DNA of 34,254 nt, taken from contig JAGGRZ010000026.1 in NCBI GenBank assembly GCA_021159335.1, positions 1 through 34,254 of the forward strand. The letters run 5' to 3'. The stretch comes from a bacterium. Lineage in GTDB: Bacteria > UBP14 > UBA6098 > B30-G16. Shown here piece by piece: positions 14,319 through 33,905 of the stretch. Below the pieces are notes generated by a model that had not been told where the DNA came from, made no database searches, and saw only the letters and a list, made by a program, of their open reading frames with translations. The number at the start of each line of letters is the position of its first letter. Position 1 is the first letter of the stretch. The position numbers and the translations under genes were made by a program.

Positions 14319-17300
14319 TTACTTGACGAACAGCACTTTTGTCGTCGCCGTGAGGTCACCATATTTCAGCTCGACAATGTAGATTCCGCTGCTTCTGCCA
14401 GTAGCATCCCAGTGCAATGTGTGCATTCCAGCTTTCAGCGTGCCATCAAACAGCTTACTAACCACGCGACCATTTATGTCCTTTACATAGACCGTAACAT
14501 TATCCTGCTTGGGAATCTCGAATGTTATGTCGCACACAGAGTTGAACGGGTTCGGTGCAGCAGTAAGAGTGAACACATCAGGTTTGAGCGAAGCGCTCTC
14601 CAGAACAGCATCATTGGTTATAGGTGCGTGAAGGAGAATTCCACCGATTATGGATTTAGCGATATCCCAAGTAGAGGTTACTGAAGCAGGATAAATCGAT
14701 GTGTAGATTCTTCTATCAGTGTAAGCTACGCCAACCACCATGGAGTCATCATTAGCGTACAGGATCGCTTTTGCACCAGCATTGGGCGTAAGTCTATCTA
14801 TATAGTTATCCGCTGCACTACCGAACGGATAGCTACCTCTTATGTAACCTCTGTTCTGGAAGAATACCGAGTCGCCGAACACTCTATGAACATTACCTGT
14901 AGTTGAAGGGTTACCGTCTATAGCGGAGAAGTTAAATAGGTCCAAGAATGGGGTTCCGACATAATCCTGAGCGAAGTCGGGACCCTGCACGAAGATGAAT
15001 CCGCCAGCCCTCACATAATCTGCAAGCGCATTAACCATAGCCGCCGGCATAACTTCATCACTACCATCGCCACGAATTCCAAGAACTATAAACACACCCG
15101 CATCAGAGCCGCCAATGTAGTCGTTGAGGTCATACTTGTTGTATTGCGTTATGTCCTCATCCTGGTCTGTTACCGTGTAAGAAGGAATGTGTATCGCATC
15201 GAGCACATCGGTAAAGTCCTCTGTGAATCCTGCGCCATTATCGAAGTCGATAACAAGGATCTTGTTCGGGTCAGGATTAATGTGAATAGTCACGGAGTAT
15301 GTTGGCGACGGCAGCGAATAACCACCATCCGTGTAGTGAACGACCACATAGAAGCTGTATGTCTCACCATCTCTGACATCGTGCACCACATATGTTGTAT
15401 CATTCGGTCCAAGAGCGTCAGTTATAAGCGTTCCAGAGCCATCATAAAGCGCATAATGGTCTATGGTAAGATATGCACTGTATGGTTTATTCCACACCAC
15501 AACAAGGGTTTCTGGTGCAGGAAGCGGTCTCTGAGTAGGACCATAACTTCCAGTAATAGTCGAAACGGGCCAGTAGTAAGGTAAAATGATGTCTATAGTA
15601 GTGGGCGCATTAACATTTATGGTAGTATCGACTGTATGATGGTAATCCTTGCTTACCGTTATCGTGTAAGTGCCCCAATCGACGCTCGGCCAGCAAACTG
15701 AACCGTCATCGGGGGTCACCAATGAGGGCATAGGCGGCATTGAAACCACAGCGCCAGCCTCACTCGTATCCTCCTCAAGGTCAACATTCACGCAAACTCG
15801 GACCGGCTGCGGAAGGAGATTGAAGTTAATAGTAGTATCGTGGTCGAGGTAGAATGAGGCACTGCTTGAATAATAGCCAGTATAGCTTGCCTCAAGCGTG
15901 TAGAAACCAACAGGCAGGCTTATTGAATAGCTACCATCAGATGCTGTTGTTGCTACAGTAGTGCCAGCCAGCGAAATGGTTATCCCGCCAGCAGGTGTTC
16001 CATCAAGCGAGGCGACTCCGCTAACAGTGTATTCTATGTGATGAAGATTTATGTTAACCACAATGTCGTGGTCAACGATTGTGACCGTATCGATAAATGT
16101 GCTATAACCAGGAATAGTATTCTCAGCGCGAATAATGTATGAGCCCGCGAGAAGACCAGTAAACTCATAATATCCTGAGCTGTTCGAGAACACATCAGTA
16201 GAACCAATAGTTACTCGCACATTAGCTGTAGGAACGCCGTCCACAAAAGTAGTTCCGCTTATTGTATAGGTTGGCGGGTAAAGGTAAGCATCAACATTAA
16301 TGTTGCTGTCAACTATAGTCACAGTAGTATCCCAATCGACATAACCAGTAGCACTGAAGCTAACAGTGTATGAACCAGGAGCAAGTCCAGTTATCTCATA
16401 GGCGCCGTGGGTTCCACCAGAACCACTAATGTCGGTAACTCCGCCGGCGGTTACTGTCGCACCATCTATTGGTGTTCCCGTAAGTCCATCGTAAACTATT
16501 CCGTAAATGGAGTATGTTCTTGCCGCAGCATAGAGACCAAACCTTATGTGAGCCTCCTGGGTGGATGTTATCGCTATTCTGTTGGTGTCGGACATATTAA
16601 TGTAGTCAGTGCTGTCGGGTGGAATACCAATAGGTGAAACTGCTATCTGCATTACCCAATCACCGCTTACGGGAACAAGTGACGAGTTCCATGTCAGCCA
16701 CTGATGCGTGCCAGAAGCACCGCTAATCTTTATTATCCACTCGTTCTGCACGCAGTTATCCCTTATGTCCTTCATCAACTGCGGGAACGGTGTGGCAAGA
16801 GGATTATCGATAAATCCATAGAAGCCAGATGGTGTTACTATGAGCGGTATGTCAACGCCGGCATCGTAGGCTACAGTAGTTGATTCGCTCGCGCCAATAA
16901 CGAGATTGTATATGTTGACCATAGCGCCGGAATCAACAGCGGTAACAGTAAACTCAAATTCCGGTCCGCAAATCATACCAGTAGTGAACGACCAGGAAAC
17001 ATCAAGTGGGTGCCGCGTTGGAACATCGACATCCGTGCAGTGAACGAACACAGTATATGTCGTCATGGGCGAAAGCAATCCTGGTGGGTCGTATGTGAGT
17101 TCGTAACCATTTCCGCTTACAAGTCTCTCCCAGTGCAGGGAATCTGTAACATCGCGTCCGTTGAACTGAACCACAACTGAAGCGCTGTCAATATCGTTAT
17201 CGTCGTATAATCTGAACTTAATGTCCGTGTCAGGACCAACGCCTGTGGCACCAGAAAGCGGTCTTATTATTGTTATCTGCGGGTTTATGACGGGACGAGT

Positions 17301-18965
17301 GGTATCCCTTATGATAGCCTTGACAAATATAAGGTCGGATGCGGGAACGGTAAGACTGCTGTAACCGGTCATGTTGAACCATGTTATCGAACTCGGGTCC
17401 GGCCCGTGACCGACGAAAAGCTGAAGCATCAGCGGCGCGCCGAGAACCGGTATGGTTGACCTATCCCAGGTTATATCTATATTTCCAGTAGCACCTGATG
17501 TTCTTACCTCGAAAACATCCATACCAATATCAAGATGATGAATATTTGTTCCGAGCATGGTTACTTCGGGGTGAGTGGGGTCAGCAAGCGGGAAGTAAGC
17601 ATAGAAGCCGGGGAACGCAGTCATCGGTATGTCGATTCCAGGGTCGAAACCATCCGTTGCTGCCGGGTCCATACCGAATGTCAGGACTGTAGGCACAGAG
17701 GTTCCGCTGCTAAGATTTATCGACATTCTCCAACCTGTGAATGCTTCCGGCGAAACGAAGAACACAGCTTCTACCGAATCACAATTGCCCGAATAGTCGC
17801 ACGCATAGACCCATAGCGTGTGGTTAGTCATTCTTGGCCATCCGCTCGCCGGCTGCGGCGGAATATCGATATCGTAATCGTAGCTCACGCCTAATCTCGT
17901 ATACGACCATGCTCCACTGGCAAGCGTTGTGCCATCAACTTTTATTATAACAGATGAAATGTCAACACCAACACCATAATCCCTTATCTGGAACCTTATG
18001 TGGTCATCTGCTTCGATAGTATCTATTATCATTGGATCAATGCTCCAGTTCATGTAAACTGGTGGGTCTATATCGCCCGGTGGAGTAGCAGTAGTCATGA
18101 AGCACCATGTCGTGGTATCCATAACATGAGGACCTGTCTCGGTATCGAGGTCAGCAGCCACCACTGCAACGCAAATATTGGCAGAGCCGGGGAACATATC
18201 GGCAGGATGCTCGTAAATGAATCTATAGCCGCCGATTATTGGTATTGTTCTTCCGAGTGAAGTTATATTAGCAACGCTATCAATAACACCATCAGTATCG
18301 ATATCAAAGTAAAGGAGAACCGATATCGATGTCTCATCAACGCCGGTCACATCGTCAACTATGTTGAACGAAACCACTTCGTTCCACTCTATATCGTCCG
18401 CGCCATCCGCTGGATACATGCTTATAACCGATGGCGGGAAATGGTCTACAGCACCGTGTTGCCTTATTCTGATAACCACTTCCTGGTGCGGCATGAAGTA
18501 GAATGTATCGACAGTGCTCATGTCGGTCCATGTGGGAATGTCGAAAGAACCAACATTTCTTGCGCCTATCTGAGCCATCTCAACATCGGCGGGTATCGCA
18601 GTATGGTTCCATACTACCATGCGCGGCGAGGATGTATAATCGTATTCTACTCTTATTATGTAATAGTGTTCTCCAACCGTTGAATTTCTGATGTCGGTGG
18701 TAAGATATGGGTCGAACCCTGCAGGAAAACCTGTTGTGCATGGTGCAACGAAGAAGAACCTCACGCCACCGGGAATCGGCGGCATAGCAGGAACATCGAA
18801 ACCCGCATCGAAACAATCAGAAGCGCGAGGGTCCGCGCCCAGAGTAAGGGTTAACGAGCTCGTTCTATCACCTGAATATACCTCTACATCATATGTCCAG
18901 CTTTGTGCATATAGGCCGCCCAGTAGTAAAACAAATACTACCAAACTAACTGTTGCCTTTCTCAT
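14319..18965 (-). CDS. Giant multidomain secreted protein with T9SS-type C-terminal sorting domain
   Basis: This protein of about 1548 aa starts with a signal peptide (MRKATVSLVVFVLLLGGLYA). The ATG at 18965 has GGGGG 6 nt upstream; another ATG two codons earlier touches the Shine-Dalgarno site and is less likely. Visible parts: three copies of a G-D-P module (about residues 54, 439, 702; for example DPAATDGFDPGIDIP) and Big_5-like Ig segments near 175, 305 and 568. Three or four carboxypeptidase-regulatory-like repeats (about 815-1050; for example TYTISGTTFVD) and an FN3-like domain (about 1145-1225) follow. A globular Rossmann/GATase-like region (about 1235-1445, starting ILVIDFDNG) comes next. 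The C-terminal tail has APNPFN, SGIYIVEL and ends TTKVLFVK. The tail suggests T9SS export and surface anchoring. No catalytic residues were identified; an adhesive or structural surface role is inferred. Confidence 0.88.
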   Translation of the reverse strand: MRKATVSLVVFVLLLGGLYAQSWTYDVEVYSGDRTSSLTLTLGADPRASDCFDAGFDVPAMPPIPGGVRFFFVAPCTTGFPAGFDPYLTTDIRNSTVGEHYYIIRVEYDYTSSPRMVVWNHTAIPADVEMAQIGARNVGSFDIPTWTDMSTVDTFYFMPHQEVVIRIRQHGAVDHFPPSVISMYPADGADDIEWNEVVSFNIVDDVTGVDETSISVLLYFDIDTDGVIDSVANITSLGRTIPIIGGYRFIYEHPADMFPGSANICVAVVAADLDTETGPHVMDTTTWCFMTTATPPGDIDPPVYMNWSIDPMIIDTIEADDHIRFQIRDYGVGVDISSVIIKVDGTTLASGAWSYTRLGVSYDYDIDIPPQPASGWPRMTNHTLWVYACDYSGNCDSVEAVFFVSPEAFTGWRMSINLSSGTSVPTVLTFGMDPAATDGFDPGIDIPMTAFPGFYAYFPLADPTHPEVTMLGTNIHHLDIGMDVFEVRTSGATGNIDITWDRSTIPVLGAPLMLQLFVGHGPDPSSITWFNMTGYSSLTVPASDLIFVKAIIRDTTRPVINPQITIIRPLSGATGVGPDTDIKFRLYDDNDIDSASVVVQFNGRDVTDSLHWERLVSGNGYELTYDPPGLLSPMTTYTVFVHCTDVDVPTRHPLDVSWSFTTGMICGPEFEFTVTAVDSGAMVNIYNLVIGASESTTVAYDAGVDIPLIVTPSGFYGFIDNPLATPFPQLMKDIRDNCVQNEWIIKISGASGTHQWLTWNSSLVPVSGDWVMQIAVSPIGIPPDSTDYINMSDTNRIAITSTQEAHIRFGLYAAARTYSIYGIVYDGLTGTPIDGATVTAGGVTDISGSGGTHGAYEITGLAPGSYTVSFSATGYVDWDTTVTIVDSNINVDAYLYPPTYTISGTTFVDGVPTANVRVTIGSTDVFSNSSGYYEFTGLLAGSYIIRAENTIPGYSTFIDTVTIVDHDIVVNINLHHIEYTVSGVASLDGTPAGGITISLAGTTVATTASDGSYSISLPVGFYTLEASYTGYYSSSASFYLDHDTTINFNLLPQPVRVCVNVDLEEDTSEAGAVVSMPPMPSLVTPDDGSVCWPSVDWGTYTITVSKDYHHTVDTTINVNAPTTIDIILPYYWPVSTITGSYGPTQRPLPAPETLVVVWNKPYSAYLTIDHYALYDGSGTLITDALGPNDTTYVVHDVRDGETYSFYVVVHYTDGGYSLPSPTYSVTIHINPDPNKILVIDFDNGAGFTEDFTDVLDAIHIPSYTVTDQDEDITQYNKYDLNDYIGGSDAGVFIVLGIRGDGSDEVMPAAMVNALADYVRAGGFIFVQGPDFAQDYVGTPFLDLFNFSAIDGNPSTTGNVHRVFGDSVFFQNRGYIRGSYPFGSAADNYIDRLTPNAGAKAILYANDDSMVVGVAYTDRRIYTSIYPASVTSTWDIAKSIIGGILLHAPITNDAVLESASLKPDVFTLTAAPNPFNSVCDITFEIPKQDNVTVYVKDINGRVVSKLFDGTLKAGMHTLHWDATGRSSGIYIVELKYGDLTATTKVLFVK

Positions 18966-19076
18966 AATCATCCCCCTTTCATTGGATTCTTAACTTTTAT
19001 CATTCCTTTTACCTAAAAAAATTCTAAAAAATCCATCAAAAGTTTTCCTAAAACTCCTTTCAAACTCTCTTTCCTT

Positions 19077-19132: not shown

Positions 19133-22100
19133 TTACTTGGAGAGCATCATCGTTCTGGTCTGGACGAACTTTCCGGATGTCAGCTTGTAGATGTAGATTC
19201 CGCTTGCGACCTCATTTCCAAGGTCATCGGTGCCGTCCCAGACAACGGTTCTGAATCCAGGAGTCTGCTCCTCGTTAACAAGTGTCTTGACCTTATGACC
19301 AGTAACATCGAATACCTCGATCTTCACATGAGCATTCTTCGGAATCTCGTACGCTATAACAGTAGCAGTGTTGAATGGGTTCGGATAGTTTCCGCCGAGA
19401 GCGAACTTGGTCGGAACGGCTCTCTTCTCAGCCACTATGAAGTATTTGCCCTCAGTAAGCGTGACGCTACCAGCCTCTCTGAGGTTGATTCTGTTGCCGT
19501 CAACAACGATGAACACATCGTATTCCTCAGGAACATTGCTCAGGTCAGGTGTGATGCTTATAACCTTGTCAATAACATGGAGCTTCCATACGAGCTTATC
19601 AGCCTCGGGCTTGTAGTTAACTTCCATGTGGTTGTCGAGATAGACCTCAGGCTCACCAGGCATAGCAGGAAGTGCCGGCTTATCAACACCCTCATCAAGC
19701 ATGTCTGTGGCGCCATCGGCAGCACCAACCACGAGTGTCTTCGCAATAGTTCCTGCCTTAACAATCAGGTCAGCATCCCAGAGAGCTGTAACCGGCGAAG
19801 CCTTGAACGAGGAGTGTCCGCTACCGGCTGAGCTAACTGTGAGCGTGCACGGAGCAACATTAACCCAGATTATGTGACCGCGGCACTGATGGAGAGTGTT
19901 GGTCGGCACATAACCGTGAGCCGCGCAATCGTAGTAGTAAGTCTGTGTGATGTTTATGGCACCAGGAGGCGTCACATCGACTCTGGATATAGGCACATCA
20001 CCCCAGATAGCGCCTATGGAGTTCCAGGACGGCTGCAGGTCGTCAACGGTGAACTCAGTCACCGGATCACCGCAGACCACTATGGTATCCGCTGTGCTGG
20101 ACATCACGAGGTAACCATCGCCGATTCTGAGAGGATCAGGTGCCGGGATGTAGGTTCCACCGCGATTGAGGAATACTGGTCTTGTGCCGAATATGGTGCT
20201 CTTGCTGAGGTCAGGCGGAATTACAGACAGAGCAACTAAGCTCCAGCCTGGGCAAAGCTCCCACTCGCAGCATTCGACCTCAGGTCTTACCACTACTCTG
20301 TCGCAGCCGGTGTTGCCAGCAAGGTCTGTGGCGCACACATAGACTGTATCGCCTGCGGTAAGTGTCACTGCAGCCTCACTTATGGAACCGTCATCGTTAG
20401 TAGGTATGGAGTCCGCATACTTCGTGCTCATATCCAGGCTGTAGATGCTTACATACACATATGTATTGTTGAGGACATCGCGGAATCCTCTGCCGAGCAG
20501 GTTATCGGTAATCGCGCCCGCATCACCCTGGATGCTTCCAGAAGTAAGCGTTATCTGACCACCATTTACATGAGGCGGATCAGTATCGATAAGCACGAAC
20601 TTACCGTAGGACCTCGAGTATCTTGCTTCATCGTAGTCGAGAACATTACCCGCGACATCGCGACCCTTGACGAGAATCATAGCAAGACCATTACCAGCAG
20701 GATCAGAGGCTACCGCCCAGCGATACTTGTAGGAATTATCCGCGAAGTAGTACATCGGAAGCGGATAGGAATCGTAACCGCCGTCAGGCTGATGCCAGAA
20801 CGGATGGAGAAGGTCGTCTGTGGTATGGACAGCGTGATACAGTCTTGCATCGAGCATGTCGTTAGGATCGTCAGTGTGGAATCCGAGATGAGGCGGACCA
20901 TCTATGGTCATTCTCAGGTAATCCCATGTTCTTCCGTAGGTGCTGTCGTCGTAGCATACATAGTCCTCAGCGCCAACAGCCTGATCGAATATCGTCTGTC
21001 TCCAGTAGATATATATGTCGATAGTGTCAGCATTTGTGACCCAGATAGTCTCACCGGGCAGCGAGTCGGAGATGCAGGTCATCATTGGCGCACCACTAAC
21101 TCTGGTTAGCTGCACGCGATACTCAGGATCATATGTATCAATCAGCACATAGGTCGGGTGGTCGGTCGCGTAAACCGATGTCATCGCCACATCGTGCTCG
21201 TATGTTGTGAACACTATCTTAGCTGGACCATCGAAGCGGTTATCCTGGTCGTCGAGCACCCAGTTGTAAACCAGATATCTGTGCGTATCACCGAGGCAAT
21301 CGGTGAATGTTACGATATCATCAGGCAGATAGAACATATGGCGAACAACCGGGTTGGAACCGCTTATAGGTCCACCGTACTCGTCCTCGATGGTCAGCAG
21401 CACACTGTCGGTGTAGATAAGGTCATCCTCAAAGAGCTCGAACAGGACATAGATTGAATCGCCAGGATAGCCACCCTGCTCAGTGTAAGAGTGCATCAGC
21501 GGGTCAGTAATACCGGATGTCGGGTCAGGATTGTTGAATGTTATGACCTGGAACTTATGCAGGTGCTCATGACCCTCGATTATCGACTGTGTGATGTATA
21601 CCCAGCCTGGCCAGTCAGGATACTTATCCTCGTTAGGCCACGGATAGATATCGTCAGCCCACGGCTGGCTCGGATAGTTGCAGGACGTTCTCTTCATAGC
21701 ATCCACGAAGTTGTCGCCGCGTGCAAGGAACGCCTCGCGCGGAATCTGTATGTTGCCGCGGGTGAACATGAAGGTATGCGGATAGGTTTCGCTGGTAACC
21801 ACGCCGTCATCCTCGTAAACATTGGTAACCTCGTTAATTCCGTAAACCTTCACTCTGTAGAGTCCCGGAATAAGCTCACCAGCGCAATCCCACTCGTAGA
21901 TTATCGCATTAATCGTCGGGTCATACCACAGACCATCTGACGGATCCTCATCCACGCGGATGAAATCATCGTCGTAAGGCGGTGTGTGGTCAGTTATAGG
22001 ATAGATAGCTCCGGTAACCTCGTCGATCCAGGCAAGGCCAATCTTGTCAACTCTGGTGATCTCAGGACCCGTGATAACGAATCTTATCTTCTCAGTGGTC

Positions 22101-25100
22101 GGCAGGAATATCAGTCTATCAGTTCCCATCGGAATGTCGCCGTCAAAGTCGCTCGTGAGGTATACATCGGTTCCGCCCTCGATAACCTTGTTGTCGAACC
22201 ACAGGTTGAGAACCGTATCCGCAACATAGTCTCCAGGATAGAATCTCGAGTAAACCTTGAACACTATCGAAGCGTACAGGCTTTCCTCGCCGGCAGCCGC
22301 GGTGAATATGTCGAATATGGAGCACGGGAGCTTAGCGGCATATGTTCCGTAGTGATAGCTATACCACACATACGGCGATGTCGGAACATCGTCTATGACG
22401 AAGTGGTAAGCATCACCAGGTCTTGTCGGAACATCGCTGTCGCCCCAGGCAACGGTGTGGAAGTAGACATCGAACACCACGCTGTCGGTAATTGATGGGT
22501 CGAAGTCGTATGCGAATATGTCGTTGCATCTTCCGATAGGCGAGATAAGCCCGAACAGTCCACCGCCCTCATAGGATGTTACCACGCCAGCACCACCGCC
22601 GTACGGAGTTTCCCAAGCATCGTTCTCAGAAACATCGGATGTGAACTCGGTTACCGGCCAACCCATTGTCGGCGGATGATACCTTGTCTCAATCCTGAAC
22701 GGATAGACATGAGGCAGCATCTCGTTGCCGGCATTGTCGGCGAAGCCCTGAACTCTTATCTCCGCAACACCGTCCATAAGTCCGCCGCCAGCTATAATCA
22801 TGTAACCAATCCATTCTCTGTCAGTATTCCATCCTGGCTCAACCGTAAGAGCGCCAGGAGTTCCTACCTCTTCGTCACTGCTGGGCACGGAGCTTCTATA
22901 AAGCGGACCACCAGCGACATGCTCGTAATCAGCATATATGTTGGCAAGCGGGAAGAACCTTGCATAGCTTTCTATAGGAACAACAGGGAACCAGTGCGTC
23001 CAGCCTTCAGGTCTAAATCTGACCATGTGGCCAAGCTCTTCTCCGACATCCATATTATCGTTGAACCATATTCTCACATAAACCGTGCATATAGCACCAG
23101 GCTCATCAGGCGGTGAGAAGTTGTACACGCCTATAAGGCTGTCCTGAGTCGGTATCAGCCACGGAGCCTTGAACAGGCTCGGATCCCAGCAGTTGAAGTC
23201 GAGAATCTCACCAGTAACTGAATCCTTTATAGCGGTGCAGAACGCGATACCCTTAATCTCCGGCAGACCATTATCGAGCGCCATCTTGTCGGACATCACG
23301 AACGCGCTGTTACCGAGCTTATCCTGAATGGTAGCAACAGCATACATAGAATCCGCAATGTAGAGCGTGTCGTAGGTTATCGTTGTCATCTCTGCGACCT
23401 CAGGGTGCACGCTGTGGTCGATACCGTGATAGAGTTGCACCGGTGTGACAAGCCTCATTGTTCTCGCTATCTGAGTCTCATCTGCGCAGTTGTGGATAAC
23501 GAAGGACTCATTGGTGAACAGGTAGTAAGTGCCAGGATTGTATCTTAATTCGAGATATTCATTGAGCTCTGGATGCCACTCGTAAACCAGCGTGTCGGAG
23601 TAAGGCACCACTGCTGGCAGTGGCCACGGTGTCGTCCAACCCTCAGTGGTTCCACCACCCGAGCATCCGACGCCATCGTCAGTTATAGCCTCAAGTCTTA
23701 CCCTTATGTTATAGTTGCTCCTGTGGCGAGCAACGCAGTTAACCTCATCATAACCGGAAACCGCTACAAGAGGAGCAAAGTGTCCAGTGGGCGGCTCCAT
23801 ATCTATTATGTAATCCCATCTGTATTCATGATACACCGAAAGCGTATCCTCACCGAACATATTCGGTGTCCTGGTGTGGATTCCGACGGTAACAACGATG
23901 CTGTCCTTGTTGCGGTAACCGTATATCGGAATCAGATGATGAATAACACCAATGGTATCACCGGTTATTGAATCGAGGTAAGGCTCAACGAGGAGCTCCC
24001 AATCTCTCGGTGCAGGCCAGCCGCAGTACTCATGAGGAATGAAGTTGACTGGTATCAGATAACCACCCGCACCAAAGATGTACACTGTATCGTAAATCGT
24101 GTCGCATGTCATAAGCTGGTCGAGCGGACCGATTATGAGCCTTCCGCCGTCGATGCAGCCATCTGTGCCGTAGGGCACGCCATCTCTCATCGGGATATAC
24201 TGCAGCCAACAAGCGATGCAGTCAGCATCATACCAGTCCTCACGGCTCCAGATTAGCGTACCGGTGGAGTCGTAAAGCTCTACCTTAGCATACGGCGAGT
24301 GATTAACCACGGAATCGCTGCCAGGATGGCTTCCACCACGATGCTCGTAAACTATCGAATCGGTGCATGTCTGTATGTCGAATGTTATGAAGTTGAGTTC
24401 CTTGGCATATTTACCAAGATACGGGTCACGGTCCATATCGGAAAGATCGGTCTCGCTCGTAACCTCATCAAGGTTGTAATATGTACCATGAAGGTCAGGT
24501 GGATAATGGAAATCTACACCGTGTACCCAGTCATCATAAGCTTCATCGTTGAACCAGTTGACCTCTGTTACTTCGAGGTCAGGCTTAATCTTAACAGCCT
24601 CGGTCCATACCTGCTGCCAGTTCGGGTTCTCAAAGTCGTTGTAGATGTATTTAACGCCAGTGGTTCCGCCGGACTCGTAGTTGTAAACCGTATCGCCGAA
24701 GAACGACTGATAGGAGTGCTCACCAGTACGCCAGAATGTGAAGAACATGTATTGTATAGCATCATCAGAGCTGAGATATGTTCCACCGGTGTAGCAGTCG
24801 AACTCATGATGCCACTCATAATATTCTCCGCCGGTTCCGCCAAGATATGGACCACGCCAGTTGACCTGACGCTCGGTCGCGGGGAACCACGGAGTGTTAA
24901 CAGCGTCACCAGCATAAATCTCGACTATAACGCTGTCGCCGGGCTCGAAGAAGTGGCAGCTATGTTCATCACCATCTCCCCAGTAGAGCTTAAGCCACGC
25001 GGAACGCTCAGGATCAAGTGAATCTTCCTCAAGCTTCACATAGAAGTATCTATCTGCTCTGTAAGCATCACTGCAGCATGGCAGCCAGCGGCAGGTATCC

Positions 25101-28100
25101 ATTCCGTGACCATAGTACGCAGTGAAGTAGGTTCCAAGATGAGCGTCGTGATAAACCAAAGCTTCCTCGCCAACCGGAAGGTCATTAATGAATATGGTAT
25201 CTATGTTATAAGGAATGCCATCTGTTTCGTCGCAGTCCTCGTCGTCAATGGTAATTATTCTCACATCGACAGCACCCATGCCGGCAACATGAGCGTCACA
25301 CCATCTTGGACCAACATGGCGAGCAACATCGGTTATCTTGAACTTCCACTCGAACGGGCACTGGTCGAACTCGGTTACCTGATACTGTGGCGGATCGGCG
25401 TCGACATAGAATGTCCATCTCGCTACCTGTCTTGGCGCAAGAACCAATCCGTCAGGGTCAACCACATCCTCAGCCCAGTTGTTGCCGGGCACATAATGTG
25501 TGAACCTGAACTTTTCTACACCGCCTGCATAGGAACCAACGACAGTGCAGCCACCCACGCTGGTTGGGCATGGACCGAATCCGCCGCACTCCATCGTGCA
25601 GTTGGTGTAGGCATTATCGGCTGCGTATACTGTCACGCAGACCTCATCGCCCGACCTGAACGCAGCAGCACCAGGAAGCGGCCTTGTTGCATACGGGTCA
25701 AACACGACTCTTGTGCCCCACCAGCTGTAGAGCGAGTCGTGCATTCTTATCTTCTCGACGACGAGGTTAGGAACGCTCGCTGGATGTGTCGTCGGATAAA
25801 CGCCTGAACGATTTATAACGAAATTCCTGCCCTCAGGACCACCGTAATACGGATGCCATGTGCCGTCGCAACCGCGAACCTTTATGTTCATTATTATCGA
25901 GTCCGCATTAACGCCTGATACACCATAGAACCTTGGACCGAAGTCTCCGAGGTTATCCTTATAGTAAGTCGGGTTGTCGACATTATCGAACCCTATCTGG
26001 TCATAAAGGTCAACAGTTATCACCTGTGTGGTGTCAGATGTCACCCAGCCATGAGGCGGATAATAGTTGCTTGTGGGCGCATACGGTCCAACAAGGTCTA
26101 TTCTTACTATTCCAAGGGTGTCAGGGCTGTAGCTTGTGTAACCAGGGCAGGTCACGCTCCAAAGAGGAACATGATTGTCAAAGGACGTCTTGGTTCCGTA
26201 GTTGGGGTCATTTCCGCCAGCGGAGCACCAGGAATCGGACGGATAAAGGTCTATTGAGCCGTATGCGATAGCGGTATCTTTCTGGCTACCCTGACCGTAG
26301 TCGGGGTCGTCCATGATCATCGTCGCGATTATGTAAACCTTATCGCCGGACTGAAGCTCAAACAACGAGGCATCCGTTCTGTATGGCGAACGATATAGAT
26401 GCTCGAAGTTAATATACAGATATCCGCCCGTGCCTTCGTCGTTCTCATCGAAGTAAACGCCCTGAATCGAGTCGCCAGAACATGCATCATACCACTTAAT
26501 CATATCATCTTCCGTTACGGTAAGCGTATATGTCGCAGCAGGCATAAATGTTCCAGCCTCAGAACCAGTAGCCTGACGCTCAACTATGAATGTAATCTCG
26601 AAGTCTCTCTGATTGAATCCTGAACCACCTGCTCCGCCAGTGTACTTCGTTCCATGGTTGGTAACATCGTGAACCCTTGCGTAATCGTCATAAACTTCTA
26701 TGGTGAATACGGGGAGGGAATCTGCAAGCCATACATAAGGAACGGGCGCACCCTCAATTTCATCGGCTCTGTTGAAATTACCAGCTGTGCCGTAATCTCT
26801 GTAGGCTCTTGTCTCATTATCATGGCCCTCAGTGCTGGGGCAAACGAGTTCAGCATTAGGACCGGAAAGGTCAACGATGAATATCCATGAAGTATCGGAA
26901 TACCAATTCGGACCGCCGTTAGCACGGTTGAATACTCTTACTGAAACCCTCACTATAGCACCGTCAAGGAATGGGTCAAGATAATCATCCACAGTTGAAG
27001 GACCATCATTACCGACAGCAATCCAGAACGAATCTATACCGCATCCGCCAAGGTCATTAACTGCGCCAGCTTCATAGAAGTTACCCCAGCGAGGCGTGGT
27101 ATGTGCGGGGTCACTAACGCAGTCGTCATCATTGCCGTCAGCCTTTATGTAAACCTCCCAGCCGAGCCCATGACCACCATTTCTTAGCGTATCCCGACCG
27201 AACTCGAGAGGATTCCTGAAGAATATGGAGTCTATTCTGCACGGGAAGTTTCCGCCGTTAAGATAGCGAATCTCGACCACCACCGAGCCTATGCAACTCT
27301 GCCTGTCCTGTGCCATGAATGAGATAAGCTGGGTCGAATCAGCAGTGAAGATATAGAAGTCGTTGGTGGCTGGCCTTGAAGGCTCAGATGCCCACTCATA
27401 CTCAGAACCCGGAATGCCACCATAGGTCGGGTCAACGCCGTCAACATTGATAGCATCGGAATGCGGACCATTGGAACCGACAACATTGCTTGGATAAAGT
27501 GCGTAAATCTGCGGTGGGAAGTTCTCTATACCATAAAGGAACTCAGCGCTCGCCCAACGCTCAGCAAGAGGATTGGTTGGGTCGGGATTGTTCGGTGTAA
27601 CCTCAACATGACCAAGCGGCGGGACGGATTTGTGTTGATAGGCATCGTCAATGTAACAATGAATATCGGCTATGGAATCGATACCCACAAAGAATGTGTC
27701 GGCCTCAGTTATACCAGCAATACCGCCACCATACAATGTATCTTCACAATCATGGCAGCCGATGGTGCGCAGAACCACCCAAATCCTCTTGAACGGAAGG
27801 TTCTTACCTGTCCATGAGAACTGTGGTGGTATCGCTATCGGGTTTCTGAACGGGAATATGGCGACCCACTTATTGTATGTTCCCAGCGGCGTTGATGCAG
27901 TTCCGACCTTTATCCACTTAAGCGTTGGGTCGGTGGGATCGTCGGGGTCATATGTCAAGGTCTCCGCCGCGGTGGTTGGGTCATAAGGAACTGAGAAGTC
28001 AACATAATACGCCCTTGCAGTATCGAGAAGTCTTTCAGGAAGACCCGCTATATCGGAGTTATCAAAGATATCACAAAGAGGAGCGTGAGCAGGAATGCCG

Positions 28101-28618
28101 TCGTCCCTATCCACATAGAACTGAACGCCAGTGTAGTAGTCCTCCTCAGTCGCTGAAACGCCAAAGAATTCCCTTGCGTCTTCGGGCTTAAGCGGAGCCA
28201 GGTCTTCGTTGGGGTCGAAGTGCTGATTCCCCCAGATGGTGAGCTTTATGGCGGTAATGTATATTCTGTGCGAGGATGCCAGCACATCTAACCTTAGCAC
28301 CGCTCTATCGGACTGAAGCCCTATCAGTTCCTCGTCCATCCATGTTACCGCATCAACACCAGGAAGTCCGTAAACTCCTACCTCGGTGTGGCTTCCGTCA
28401 AGCTTGAATGTGGACCAGCTGTGTGGTCTTGCAGGGGTGAACGATGTTACTGTGCTGAAATCGGTAGTATAGTTGCTGGGGATATTTGTACCATAGCCCC
28501 CATCCACCAGGTTGAACACATTGAAATACTGCCAATCACTGCCTGTCCCCTGCGCGAATAGGGTGCCAACAAGCACCATAAGGCTTAACAACAGAACAAC
28601 TGCGCCTCTCCCTCTCAT
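19133..28618 (-). CDS. 3161-aa giant secreted surface protein with T9SS-type tail
   Basis: The ATG at 28618 has AAGGAG six bases upstream and begins a signal peptide (MRGRGAVVLLLSLMVLVGTL, then FAQ). An upstream in-frame ATG (28690) adds 24 charged residues and is unlikely. The mature protein has repeated Ig-like boundaries shaped like V-D-x-D-P-P: near residues 581, 840, 1073, 1606, 1781, 2493 and 2678. I count about fifty cysteines, some clustered (CGGFGPCP, CCEWELCPGW). A GW-S-L module lies near 2770-2900, a G-D-P module near 2978 (GATDMLDEGVDKP), and the tail runs from about 3075 with GGNYPNPFN, FDVTGHKV and SGIYIYKL. The tail suggests T9SS export and surface attachment. An S-layer-like, fibre or adhesin role is inference; no enzyme motif was seen. 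Confidence 0.88.
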   Translation of the reverse strand: MRGRGAVVLLLSLMVLVGTLFAQGTGSDWQYFNVFNLVDGGYGTNIPSNYTTDFSTVTSFTPARPHSWSTFKLDGSHTEVGVYGLPGVDAVTWMDEELIGLQSDRAVLRLDVLASSHRIYITAIKLTIWGNQHFDPNEDLAPLKPEDAREFFGVSATEEDYYTGVQFYVDRDDGIPAHAPLCDIFDNSDIAGLPERLLDTARAYYVDFSVPYDPTTAAETLTYDPDDPTDPTLKWIKVGTASTPLGTYNKWVAIFPFRNPIAIPPQFSWTGKNLPFKRIWVVLRTIGCHDCEDTLYGGGIAGITEADTFFVGIDSIADIHCYIDDAYQHKSVPPLGHVEVTPNNPDPTNPLAERWASAEFLYGIENFPPQIYALYPSNVVGSNGPHSDAINVDGVDPTYGGIPGSEYEWASEPSRPATNDFYIFTADSTQLISFMAQDRQSCIGSVVVEIRYLNGGNFPCRIDSIFFRNPLEFGRDTLRNGGHGLGWEVYIKADGNDDDCVSDPAHTTPRWGNFYEAGAVNDLGGCGIDSFWIAVGNDGPSTVDDYLDPFLDGAIVRVSVRVFNRANGGPNWYSDTSWIFIVDLSGPNAELVCPSTEGHDNETRAYRDYGTAGNFNRADEIEGAPVPYVWLADSLPVFTIEVYDDYARVHDVTNHGTKYTGGAGGSGFNQRDFEITFIVERQATGSEAGTFMPAATYTLTVTEDDMIKWYDACSGDSIQGVYFDENDEGTGGYLYINFEHLYRSPYRTDASLFELQSGDKVYIIATMIMDDPDYGQGSQKDTAIAYGSIDLYPSDSWCSAGGNDPNYGTKTSFDNHVPLWSVTCPGYTSYSPDTLGIVRIDLVGPYAPTSNYYPPHGWVTSDTTQVITVDLYDQIGFDNVDNPTYYKDNLGDFGPRFYGVSGVNADSIIMNIKVRGCDGTWHPYYGGPEGRNFVINRSGVYPTTHPASVPNLVVEKIRMHDSLYSWWGTRVVFDPYATRPLPGAAAFRSGDEVCVTVYAADNAYTNCTMECGGFGPCPTSVGGCTVVGSYAGGVEKFRFTHYVPGNNWAEDVVDPDGLVLAPRQVARWTFYVDADPPQYQVTEFDQCPFEWKFKITDVARHVGPRWCDAHVAGMGAVDVRIITIDDEDCDETDGIPYNIDTIFINDLPVGEEALVYHDAHLGTYFTAYYGHGMDTCRWLPCCSDAYRADRYFYVKLEEDSLDPERSAWLKLYWGDGDEHSCHFFEPGDSVIVEIYAGDAVNTPWFPATERQVNWRGPYLGGTGGEYYEWHHEFDCYTGGTYLSSDDAIQYMFFTFWRTGEHSYQSFFGDTVYNYESGGTTGVKYIYNDFENPNWQQVWTEAVKIKPDLEVTEVNWFNDEAYDDWVHGVDFHYPPDLHGTYYNLDEVTSETDLSDMDRDPYLGKYAKELNFITFDIQTCTDSIVYEHRGGSHPGSDSVVNHSPYAKVELYDSTGTLIWSREDWYDADCIACWLQYIPMRDGVPYGTDGCIDGGRLIIGPLDQLMTCDTIYDTVYIFGAGGYLIPVNFIPHEYCGWPAPRDWELLVEPYLDSITGDTIGVIHHLIPIYGYRNKDSIVVTVGIHTRTPNMFGEDTLSVYHEYRWDYIIDMEPPTGHFAPLVAVSGYDEVNCVARHRSNYNIRVRLEAITDDGVGCSGGGTTEGWTTPWPLPAVVPYSDTLVYEWHPELNEYLELRYNPGTYYLFTNESFVIHNCADETQIARTMRLVTPVQLYHGIDHSVHPEVAEMTTITYDTLYIADSMYAVATIQDKLGNSAFVMSDKMALDNGLPEIKGIAFCTAIKDSVTGEILDFNCWDPSLFKAPWLIPTQDSLIGVYNFSPPDEPGAICTVYVRIWFNDNMDVGEELGHMVRFRPEGWTHWFPVVPIESYARFFPLANIYADYEHVAGGPLYRSSVPSSDEEVGTPGALTVEPGWNTDREWIGYMIIAGGGLMDGVAEIRVQGFADNAGNEMLPHVYPFRIETRYHPPTMGWPVTEFTSDVSENDAWETPYGGGAGVVTSYEGGGLFGLISPIGRCNDIFAYDFDPSITDSVVFDVYFHTVAWGDSDVPTRPGDAYHFVIDDVPTSPYVWYSYHYGTYAAKLPCSIFDIFTAAAGEESLYASIVFKVYSRFYPGDYVADTVLNLWFDNKVIEGGTDVYLTSDFDGDIPMGTDRLIFLPTTEKIRFVITGPEITRVDKIGLAWIDEVTGAIYPITDHTPPYDDDFIRVDEDPSDGLWYDPTINAIIYEWDCAGELIPGLYRVKVYGINEVTNVYEDDGVVTSETYPHTFMFTRGNIQIPREAFLARGDNFVDAMKRTSCNYPSQPWADDIYPWPNEDKYPDWPGWVYITQSIIEGHEHLHKFQVITFNNPDPTSGITDPLMHSYTEQGGYPGDSIYVLFELFEDDLIYTDSVLLTIEDEYGGPISGSNPVVRHMFYLPDDIVTFTDCLGDTHRYLVYNWVLDDQDNRFDGPAKIVFTTYEHDVAMTSVYATDHPTYVLIDTYDPEYRVQLTRVSGAPMMTCISDSLPGETIWVTNADTIDIYIYWRQTIFDQAVGAEDYVCYDDSTYGRTWDYLRMTIDGPPHLGFHTDDPNDMLDARLYHAVHTTDDLLHPFWHQPDGGYDSYPLPMYYFADNSYKYRWAVASDPAGNGLAMILVKGRDVAGNVLDYDEARYSRSYGKFVLIDTDPPHVNGGQITLTSGSIQGDAGAITDNLLGRGFRDVLNNTYVYVSIYSLDMSTKYADSIPTNDDGSISEAAVTLTAGDTVYVCATDLAGNTGCDRVVVRPEVECCEWELCPGWSLVALSVIPPDLSKSTIFGTRPVFLNRGGTYIPAPDPLRIGDGYLVMSSTADTIVVCGDPVTEFTVDDLQPSWNSIGAIWGDVPISRVDVTPPGAINITQTYYYDCAAHGYVPTNTLHQCRGHIIWVNVAPCTLTVSSAGSGHSSFKASPVTALWDADLIVKAGTIAKTLVVGAADGATDMLDEGVDKPALPAMPGEPEVYLDNHMEVNYKPEADKLVWKLHVIDKVISITPDLSNVPEEYDVFIVVDGNRINLREAGSVTLTEGKYFIVAEKRAVPTKFALGGNYPNPFNTATVIAYEIPKNAHVKIEVFDVTGHKVKTLVNEEQTPGFRTVVWDGTDDLGNEVASGIYIYKLTSGKFVQTRTMMLSK

Positions 28619-28624
28619 ACCGCG

Positions 28625-28630
28625 CTCCTT
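28625..28630 (-). promoter_or_regulatory. Ribosome binding site that decides the giant-gene start
   Basis: AAGGAG on the minus strand lies six bases before the ATG at 28618. This supports that ATG, which opens a clean signal peptide, over the longer reading frame beginning at 28690. Confidence 0.85.
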
Positions 28631-28791
28631 TCTGAAAATGGTTTTACTCTCATTAACACCTTCACAACCACCAAATTTCTCCTTATCCACTATACTACCT
28701 CCTTACACTAATTTTTGCCCCACATCGCCAAAATAAATCATAACAACATTAATCAAAGAACACAAAATCTCCACAACTGAATCTTTTGAAG

Positions 28792-28820
28792 AATCTACTT
28801 CATCACACCTTTCTTGTCAA
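28792..28820 (-). promoter_or_regulatory. Candidate sigma-70-type promoter for the giant surface-protein gene
   Basis: On the minus strand a perfect TTGACA (28820-28815) is followed after 17 nt by TAGATT (28797-28792), four of six matches to the -10 consensus. It lies in the AT-rich 284-bp gap upstream of the giant gene and would give a 5' leader of about 165 nt. The gap contains no gene. Confidence 0.5.
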
Positions 28821-28902: not shown

Positions 28903-30375
28903 TTAAAAGCCCTTTCCAAAAAGGATCAAACCCAAATCAAATTTTATTTTCCATTCGTTTCTCTCCTTACCTTCTATATGATCAGCGTTGGCAACACGGC
29001 AATACTCAAGCGATAAACTTATACTAAAATCGGATTGAAAATTTTTGCTCTCATAAAAACCTCTATCATAAAACAGATCCACGCTAAAACCAGCTTTCTT
29101 TTCGACAACACCAGTGGGGAACGGTTCTTTATAATTCGGGTCGTCAAGCCAAGGTTCAGTCCATGGGTCGTCAATCCTGCCCTCGCCTTTTCTTATATAA
29201 AACACATCAAGATTGCCGCCGAAGTCCTTGCCGAACAACTTTATACCAGCACTTATTTTATCAAAATCATTTCCCAGCTGTGCTCCAAGGGGTTTTCCCT
29301 CGTAGAGATACCTATTCCACGGCTTCGATTGATTGAAGGTTCTATTCAAAACGAGTTCGTATCTTACCGTTGGCGTTAAGAACAACTTTTTAAAGGACAA
29401 GCCGTAATCAACCTGTGCTGCAAGACCGGCTTCCGTCGGCTCTCTGTCCCCCGGTGTTTTGTGCTCTATTTGATAGTCATCAATCACTATCTCCCCTCTA
29501 AGTCTTACAGGTGGCAAAAGAAGCTTGCCGTTTAATATCCACACGGTATTGTCGTCCCACCTGTGGTTAAGCTGCTCACCATGAAGCTCAAAAAGGGGCA
29601 ACATATAATACATCTCAACCCGCCGCCCAACACCACCAAAAAGCATAAGCTCTGAGAACGAAAGGTTAGCAGGTCCTACCGATACTTCCCACATGTGCCC
29701 GGCAAGAAACCTGTTGTAAATCACCTTGGTCGTTCCAGCCCATTCAACATATTCGTCGAGCTGCCCGATAAACCAGTGAAGGTTAACATATTTTCCGAGT
29801 CGAAATTTAGCCTGTGCCATCTCGAAAGGCTTTGCCCCCGACAGAGCCACACCAAGCCCATAGGAGAGGTAATCTCTTCCAAGTTGAACATAATAATCAC
29901 CCTTTCGCCACCTTAAATAAACTTGGTCGGCTTTGCCTGCTATCCGTTCCCACCTTGCCCCAAAGTATTCGGGGTCGTAGTAATATCCGCTATCAAGTCG
30001 ATAAATTCCGAGTATGGTGAAATCAGAGTGCATTCCTCCCACGCCAATATTCATTCTGCCGAACTCCCTCAATCTCGAATTCCACCTGTTGCCGAACCAC
30101 ACACCAGGTGTCCAATAAATCCAGCCCACATCAGGGATGCTTCTCCTATCTATCAATCGCGAAACCCTTCGAGCGTAAAAAGCATGGGGATTGGCTTTAC
30201 ACGCAGCCAAAAGAACATCCGATGAATACGGTTTAACTTCAGGGAGTTTTGGGACTATACCTCTAAGCTCAAGTTCCTCGCACAAATCGTTAAGATGCCA
30301 GTCAGGGCTTAAAGTAAAATCAGCACCCAAAGCCATTGCGATAAGCATAATTTTTGTCAATATAATTTTTCGCAT
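28903..30375 (-). CDS. Outer-membrane barrel resembling the Wzi capsule-assembly family
   Basis: This 490-aa protein has a short signal peptide (MRKIILTKIMLIAMALGA). A small helical N-terminal region precedes a long alternating beta-strand region. The segment with YVQLGRDYLSYGLGVALSG and the following FIGQLDEYVEW resembles Wzi-like barrels (PF14052), which help hold capsular polysaccharide at the cell surface. The C-terminus is aromatic (LGLILFGKGF), as expected for an outer-membrane barrel. The start lies 18 bp after the GGDEF gene stop, suggesting a shared transcript, but no clear Shine-Dalgarno site is present. No polysaccharide genes are adjacent, so the Wzi link rests on motif resemblance. 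Another barrel family is possible. Confidence 0.7.
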   Translation of the reverse strand: MRKIILTKIMLIAMALGADFTLSPDWHLNDLCEELELRGIVPKLPEVKPYSSDVLLAACKANPHAFYARRVSRLIDRRSIPDVGWIYWTPGVWFGNRWNSRLREFGRMNIGVGGMHSDFTILGIYRLDSGYYYDPEYFGARWERIAGKADQVYLRWRKGDYYVQLGRDYLSYGLGVALSGAKPFEMAQAKFRLGKYVNLHWFIGQLDEYVEWAGTTKVIYNRFLAGHMWEVSVGPANLSFSELMLFGGVGRRVEMYYMLPLFELHGEQLNHRWDDNTVWILNGKLLLPPVRLRGEIVIDDYQIEHKTPGDREPTEAGLAAQVDYGLSFKKLFLTPTVRYELVLNRTFNQSKPWNRYLYEGKPLGAQLGNDFDKISAGIKLFGKDFGGNLDVFYIRKGEGRIDDPWTEPWLDDPNYKEPFPTGVVEKKAGFSVDLFYDRGFYESKNFQSDFSISLSLEYCRVANADHIEGKERNEWKIKFDLGLILFGKGF

Positions 30376-33831: not shown

Positions 33832-33905
33832 GCGCCCATAGCTCAACTGGATAGAGCACCGGACTTCGGATCCGGTGGTTGGGGGTTCGAGTCCCTCTGG
33901 GCGCG
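33832..33905 (+). tRNA. tRNA-Arg (anticodon TCG)
   Basis: A full cloverleaf can be drawn. The acceptor stem GCGCCCA pairs with TGGGCGC and the D stem is GCTC/GAGC. The anticodon stem CCGGA/TCCGG carries loop CTTCGGA, and the T arm has loop TTCGAGT. The anticodon TCG (33866-33868) reads CGA and probably other CGN arginine codons. The discriminator is G and CCA is not encoded. It is one of the few plus-strand features and lies just upstream of the CRISPR leader. Confidence 0.97.

Follow-up and report, generated by a model that had tools for sequence, protein, structure and literature searches.

Proteins exported by the type IX secretion system (T9SS) can build an S-layer, as exemplified by TfsA and TfsB of Tannerella forsythia, since the S-layer of this bacterium is lost in the T9SS mutants porK, porT, and sov (PMC4175972). 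TfsA and TfsB are two large surface proteins (133 and 151 kDa) with sorting-tail-like C-termini. Another kind of T9SS surface cargo is represented by RemA and SprB of Flavobacterium johnsoniae, the latter being a protein of several hundred kDa (PMC10202324) that has a type B sorting domain and is a part of gliding. The giant protein encoded in the present window, the whole stretch of 34,254 nucleotides that was analyzed, can be likened to TfsA and TfsB in its proposed mode of working rather than by an established homology. It has a mass of approximately 350 kDa and a signal peptide, whereas TfsA and TfsB are far smaller and lack the peptide, and it matches no TfsA/TfsB-like family in Pfam or NCBIfam in a family-level search. 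With SprB it shares great size, whereas its sorting domain is of type A. The main features of the giant are as follows.

19133 to 28618, minus strand: giant secreted protein, 3161 amino acids from the ATG, 54 cysteines, 353 kDa, pI 4.35
28553 to 28618, minus strand: Sec signal peptide, residues 1-22, MRGRGAVVLLLSLMVLVGTLFAQ, assigned by inspection
19739 to 20272, minus strand: region of residues 2783-2960, with conserved Cys2783, Cys2784, Cys2789, Cys2849, and Cys2912
19145 to 19387, minus strand: T9SS type A sorting domain, residues 3078-3158, matched by TIGR04183 and FlgD_ig (PF13860), both above the cut-off

An earlier interpretation made from the letters alone (the sequence-only reading) had described an open reading frame of 3161 residues with about fifty cysteines and a PNPFN-type sorting tail. 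The frame is borne out exactly at 19133-28618, on the minus strand, and 54 cysteines are counted. The tail is also real, since TIGR04183 matches the giant with 40.8 bits (cut-off, 23) and the PNPFN sequence is invariant across 12 orthologs, all of which (12/12) are matched by TIGR04183. The same reading had further claimed repeats, a recurrent boundary motif, and an excess of cysteines, which hold only in part, as described later. The frame itself runs on upstream to an in-frame GTG at 28690, which gives 3185 residues. A Sec signal peptide is present in every homolog whose N-terminus is available, judging from inspection and a simple pattern, and the region of residues 2783-2960 is common to other T9SS cargo proteins. 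The proteins are acidic, with pI values of 4.05-4.35 across 13 orthologs. No Pfam family is found in the giant at E ≤ 1 outside the last 85 residues, and sequence matches to solved structures (PDB) outside the sorting tail are at chance level only. A type B sorting domain is not supported, as CHU_C gives 18 bits, below its cut-off of 27.

The sequence-only reading would have been refuted by a genome devoid of T9SS components, and such components are present in the source genome (2.06 Mb, 98% complete). SprA is found in frame with 617.7 bits, five PorV-family proteins are above the cut-off (the best with 185.8 bits), and six proteins belong to Peptidase_C25, the family of the PorU sortase. The six are encoded on contigs C168, C155, C87, C37, C163, and C77. 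FlgD_ig-like tails give 35 matches in this genome, and SprA is above the curated cut-off in 15 of the 17 genomes of the phylum. Because of SprA, the PorV family, and the C25 proteins in the genome, and of SprA in nearly all relatives, it is very likely that the giant is exported to the cell surface by T9SS, as far as gene content and sequence can indicate.

The search for homologs of the giant covered 17 genomes of the phylum (G000, the source genome, to G016) and 273 genomes outside it. Thirteen of the 17 genomes possess one (one of them cut by a contig end), and a contig-end fragment is found in a 14th, whereas none was found in G007, G012, and G014. Since G014 is 92% complete, a loss of the gene is possible there. 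Where assembled, the gene is single copy and co-linear. Complete orthologs have 3.0-3.35 thousand residues and show 38-62% identity over aligned residues. The blastp identities to G001 and G015 are 49% and 38%, respectively, against 52% and 38% for SprA. Conservation is lower in the neighboring cargo described below (42% versus 60% for the giant in G006, blastp). Judging from their isolate names, the metagenome-assembled genomes with related loci would come from Auka, Guaymas, and cold-seep sediments. Among the 273 genomes outside the phylum, a substantial match is found only in G073, a single-contig genome of 5.04 Mb that is the sole member of its phylum among the genomes examined; in a second one, 46 residues match at E 5e-4. 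The G073 homolog (2671 residues, 86 cysteines) has its own sorting domain and aligns co-linearly with 26% identity. Most of the match score comes from the C-terminal region common to T9SS cargo, and stretches in the N-terminal and middle parts likewise match the giant in the same order. The cell surface of such small uncultured phyla is poorly known.

Within the phylum, the genes on both sides of the giant are kept along with it.

14319 to 18971, minus strand: companion T9SS cargo, 1550 amino acids, with Big_5, CarboxypepD_reg repeats, and a type A sorting domain
28903 to 30375, minus strand: gene of 490 amino acids upstream of the giant, a probable outer-membrane beta-barrel protein, Wzi-related by its orthologs

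The companion also gives weak fn3 matches in Pfam, and in each of the 11 further phylum loci long enough to include this position, its ortholog lies directly downstream of the giant. In G073, a second T9SS cargo having domains in common with the companion occupies the same position. A likeness to Kustd1514, an anammox S-layer glycoprotein, belongs to the companion and not to the giant; it is confined to two short stretches, the best of which falls within the CarboxypepD_reg region, and membership in that family (NF052345) is rejected with 43 bits against a cut-off of 1400. The upstream gene is kept in 11 phylum loci besides the window. The Wzi family (PF14052) matches six of the 11 tested orthologs of its product, with the best E-value of 6.5e-12, and gives no match at E ≤ 1 to the protein of the window itself. 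Judging from sequence, the 490-residue protein is probably a beta-barrel of the outer membrane and a relative of Wzi, which anchors capsules. The upstream side of the G073 giant is occupied by nucleotide-sugar genes (L095:13837-17947), which encode epimerase/dehydratases, a dTDP-sugar epimerase, and a protein of the UDP-glucose dehydrogenase family. The only tRNA gene in the window is that for tRNA-Arg (tcg) at 33832-33905 on the plus strand.

The sequence-only reading had regarded the giant as a possible fiber, sheath, or S-layer component. The part on surface export is well supported by SprA, PorV, and the C25 proteins, and a role in a coat or S-layer is the best available reading. We estimate the probability that the giant is a structural outer-coat (S-layer-like) protein exported by T9SS at roughly 55%. 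At the level of sequence, the signal peptide, the sorting domain, the export machinery, the conservation, the gene order, and the paired cysteines and tandem starts described below support it. The coat reading would explain the single copy found nearly throughout the phylum, the constraint over the whole length, the acidity, the fixed cargo partner, and the ribosomal-type codon usage. As for the last point, the giant takes rank 9 among 137 sampled genes for codon usage like that of ribosomal protein genes, in a source genome whose codon bias is weak. On the other hand, the high cysteine content, the failure to find DsbB and VKOR, the lack of Pfam matches and of meaningful PDB matches outside the tail, the low confidence of the structural models, and the failure to find a homolog in G007, G012, and G014 are counted against the coat reading. 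An SLH anchoring domain has no Pfam match in the giant at E ≤ 1. The SLH domain is common but not universal in S-layer proteins, and S-layers of diderm bacteria do not require it. The idea that a wall-less cell needs a protein exoskeleton was rejected, as Mur ligases are found in 17/17 genomes.

In the proposed mechanism, translation of the giant would begin at either or both of two in-phase starts. After crossing the inner membrane by Sec, the protein would fold in the periplasm as a long row of units, most of them beta-sandwiches, and internal disulfides would probably staple many of these. Its type A sorting domain would then direct it to export by the type IX translocon (SprA/PorV), and a C25-type sortase would cleave it and fix it to the surface, where it may form a coat together with the smaller adjoining T9SS cargo. 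The upstream Wzi-like protein may help to anchor the coat or a polysaccharide. In this scheme, we infer the formation of the coat, the partner role of the companion, the anchoring, the abundance, and the disulfides. A single-copy protein whose co-linearity extends over most of a phylum and to one genome outside it makes a good candidate for the main coat protein, to which microscopy and metaproteomics could be directed.

The cysteines of the giant should be noted. They account for 1.7% of its residues. In the sampled genome, the corresponding values are 1.2% for the remaining T9SS cargo, some of which reach 2.4-3.4%, and 1.0% for the remaining proteins. The high content claimed by the sequence-only reading is thus raised but not exceptional. 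What stands out is the conservation and the paired gain and loss of the cysteines rather than their content. Across 13 orthologs, nine cysteine columns show no change, and in another nine the cysteine is missing from none but the most distant ortholog. Of the cysteine columns with two or more changes on the tree, 12/32 (38%) have a nearby cysteine column with an identical pattern, versus 4-20% for the other 19 residues by the same measure, the numbers being small and the tree being derived from the same alignment. This observation suggests that cysteines pair with each other, though a joint metal site would look alike; 2762-2772 is one of the predicted pairs. Disulfides are thus supported indirectly by the paired gain and loss, whereas searches of the 17 phylum genomes, which gave no DsbB and no VKOR, speak against them. 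Paired cysteines in genomes in which neither was found raise a testable question on how disulfides are formed in anaerobes. A high cysteine content is atypical for bacterial S-layer proteins, which usually have few or none, though this is not a defining property.

The sequence-only reading had taken recurrent V-D-x-D-P-P boundaries as marks of at least seven Ig-like units. The strict motif occurs only once, at residue 1072, whereas the form [VIL]D-x-x-x-P, which was loosened after viewing the sequence, occurs nine times against 1.2 ± 1.1 in shuffles. At seven of the loose motifs (582, 840, 1072, 1605, 1781, 2493, and 2677), the Asp and Pro residues are invariant across orthologs. Seven to nine loose motifs with this invariance fit a chain of beta domains. 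Repetition in sequence is nearly absent: in a profile-profile self-comparison of 253 segment pairs, the best pair (632-763 versus 861-995) has a probability of 73%, and nearly all the remaining pairs are insignificant or very short. With this one moderate repeat pair, a tandem repeat protein by sequence is not supported. No Ig domain is found in the body of the giant in Pfam at E ≤ 1, and Big_6 is above the cut-off once, in the G073 homolog. Structure prediction by segments, which had been suggested as a check, gives beta-rich AlphaFold models of poor to partial confidence (mean pLDDT of 43 for residues 24-1085 and of 55 for residues 1607-2785). Foldseek lists mostly antibody-type Ig domains with low TM-scores, and the matches to these low-confidence models are taken no further than a beta-sandwich of the Ig-like class. 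The claim of Ig-like units is thus supported only in part, by the loose motifs, the beta-rich models, and Big_6 in a homolog, but not by sequence repeats or by Pfam for the giant itself, and a chain of Ig-like units is plausible from the motifs and the models.

The main rival explanation is that the giant is a T9SS adhesin or fiber that binds surfaces, polymers, or cells, like SprB and RemA of gliding Bacteroidota. Its size, its beta-rich build, and its export by T9SS fit this role. Adhesins are, however, usually variable in repeat number and binding domains, whereas the giant is single copy, nearly phylum-wide, and co-linear, and is conserved to about the same degree as SprA. Furthermore, no lectin or adhesin domain is found in it in Pfam. 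The type A sorting domain argues against an SprB-like role; it does not speak against a RemA-like one, since RemA is also of type A. On balance, we regard an adhesin as rather unlikely. A secreted degradative or substrate-binding protein, such as an enzyme scaffold, would also be compatible with T9SS, many cargo of which are enzymes, and the CarboxypepD_reg, Big_5, and weak fn3 matches of the companion are common in secreted enzymes. Nevertheless, no catalytic family is found over the 3161 residues in Pfam at E ≤ 1, nor among the NCBIfam matches to the body, nor in the 12 orthologs, which makes a scaffold improbable.

The conserved cysteines might instead bind a metal, iron-sulfur, or heme group for redox chemistry at the surface. 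Two CxxC motifs (CHDC at 288-291 and CIAC at 1467-1470) that are kept in most orthologs would suit such a function, as would the failure to find a known quinone-linked disulfide oxidase in the 17 genomes and the anoxic habitats suggested by the isolate names of the related genomes. However, most of the conserved cysteines are scattered singly, and disulfides account no less well for their gain and loss in pairs. The heme motif CxxCH does not occur in the members from G000 and G010, the two tested, and a heme-bearing (multiheme cytochrome) protein is rejected on this basis. A metal or redox role is considered very improbable, and the structural coat protein remains the reading that we prefer.

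The coat reading includes two in-phase starts, which are seen upstream of the signal peptide.

28619 to 28690, minus strand: in-frame leader of 24 codons from GTG 28690 to the signal-peptide ATG, open in frame
28697 to 28703, minus strand: first ribosome-binding site, AGGAGGT, 6 nt before GTG 28690
28625 to 28630, minus strand: second ribosome-binding site, AAGGAG, 6 nt before ATG 28618 and within the leader
28792 to 28820, minus strand: possible sigma-70 promoter, TTGACA-17-TAGATT, a 10/12 consensus match only, in a scanned region where sigma-70-type matches are fewer than in its shuffles

All 14 phylum homologs for which the N-terminus is available, as well as that of G073, have 22-33 codons of in-frame leader ahead of the Met of the signal peptide. 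Over the 405 codons of these 15 leaders, this frame is free of stops, whereas the two others have 42 and 31. In G002, the frame is open further upstream, and the ribosome-binding site precedes a GTG 24 codons upstream. A strong AGGAGG(T) lies 4-6 nt before the upstream start in 12/14 phylum homologs, G015 and G016 being those without it, and G073 has AAGGAGG 9 nt before the second in-frame ATG. The site before the signal-peptide Met is also retained, as an AAGGAG-type sequence at a distance of 6-9 nt in nearly all homologs (GGAG in G002). Of 32 signal-peptide-like reading frames sampled in the source genome, just one besides that of the giant combines a leader with a strong site. Because of the open frame, the strong sites, and this rarity, the leader is probably translated, and GTG 28690 is probably a second real start.

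Adachi et al. are said to have described in 1990 tandem in-phase starts before the signal peptide of the middle wall protein, an S-layer protein, of Brevibacillus brevis. In both cases, a signal peptide is preceded by a pair of in-phase starts, and each start has a separate ribosome-binding site; since that protein is a Gram-positive S-layer protein, the likeness is one of architecture only. Large autotransporters also have an N-terminal extension before the Sec signal (26 residues in EspP; PMC2805444), and resemble the giant as large surface proteins with such an extension. They differ in their secretion route, and no extended-signal-peptide family gives a match at E ≤ 1 in the four leader regions tested, including that of the window. 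A conserved tandem start would provide a clean system for studying the control of translation and targeting of very large exported proteins. It is possible, though tentative, that there is a nearly phylum-wide coat consisting of a single disulfide-stapled, T9SS-secreted chain of approximately 350 kDa in anaerobes without DsbB or VKOR. The synthesis and Sec targeting of this chain would be set by the tandem start together with translation of the leader (22-33 residues).

The sequence D-[S/T]-[AILVMT] (D-[S/T]-hydrophobic) is reported as an O-glycosylation motif of T. forsythia (PMC8550257). It occurs 41 times in the giant against 14 expected. The motif is enriched in most T9SS cargo of the source genome, but not in GyrA. 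The enrichment may reflect glycosylation or beta-strand caps, the latter being a possible explanation because it is common to most of the cargo. A cargo protein larger than the giant, encoded at L079:3497-14938 (contig C76 of the source genome), has 3813 residues and 92 cysteines, and contains 123 of these motifs against 28 expected.
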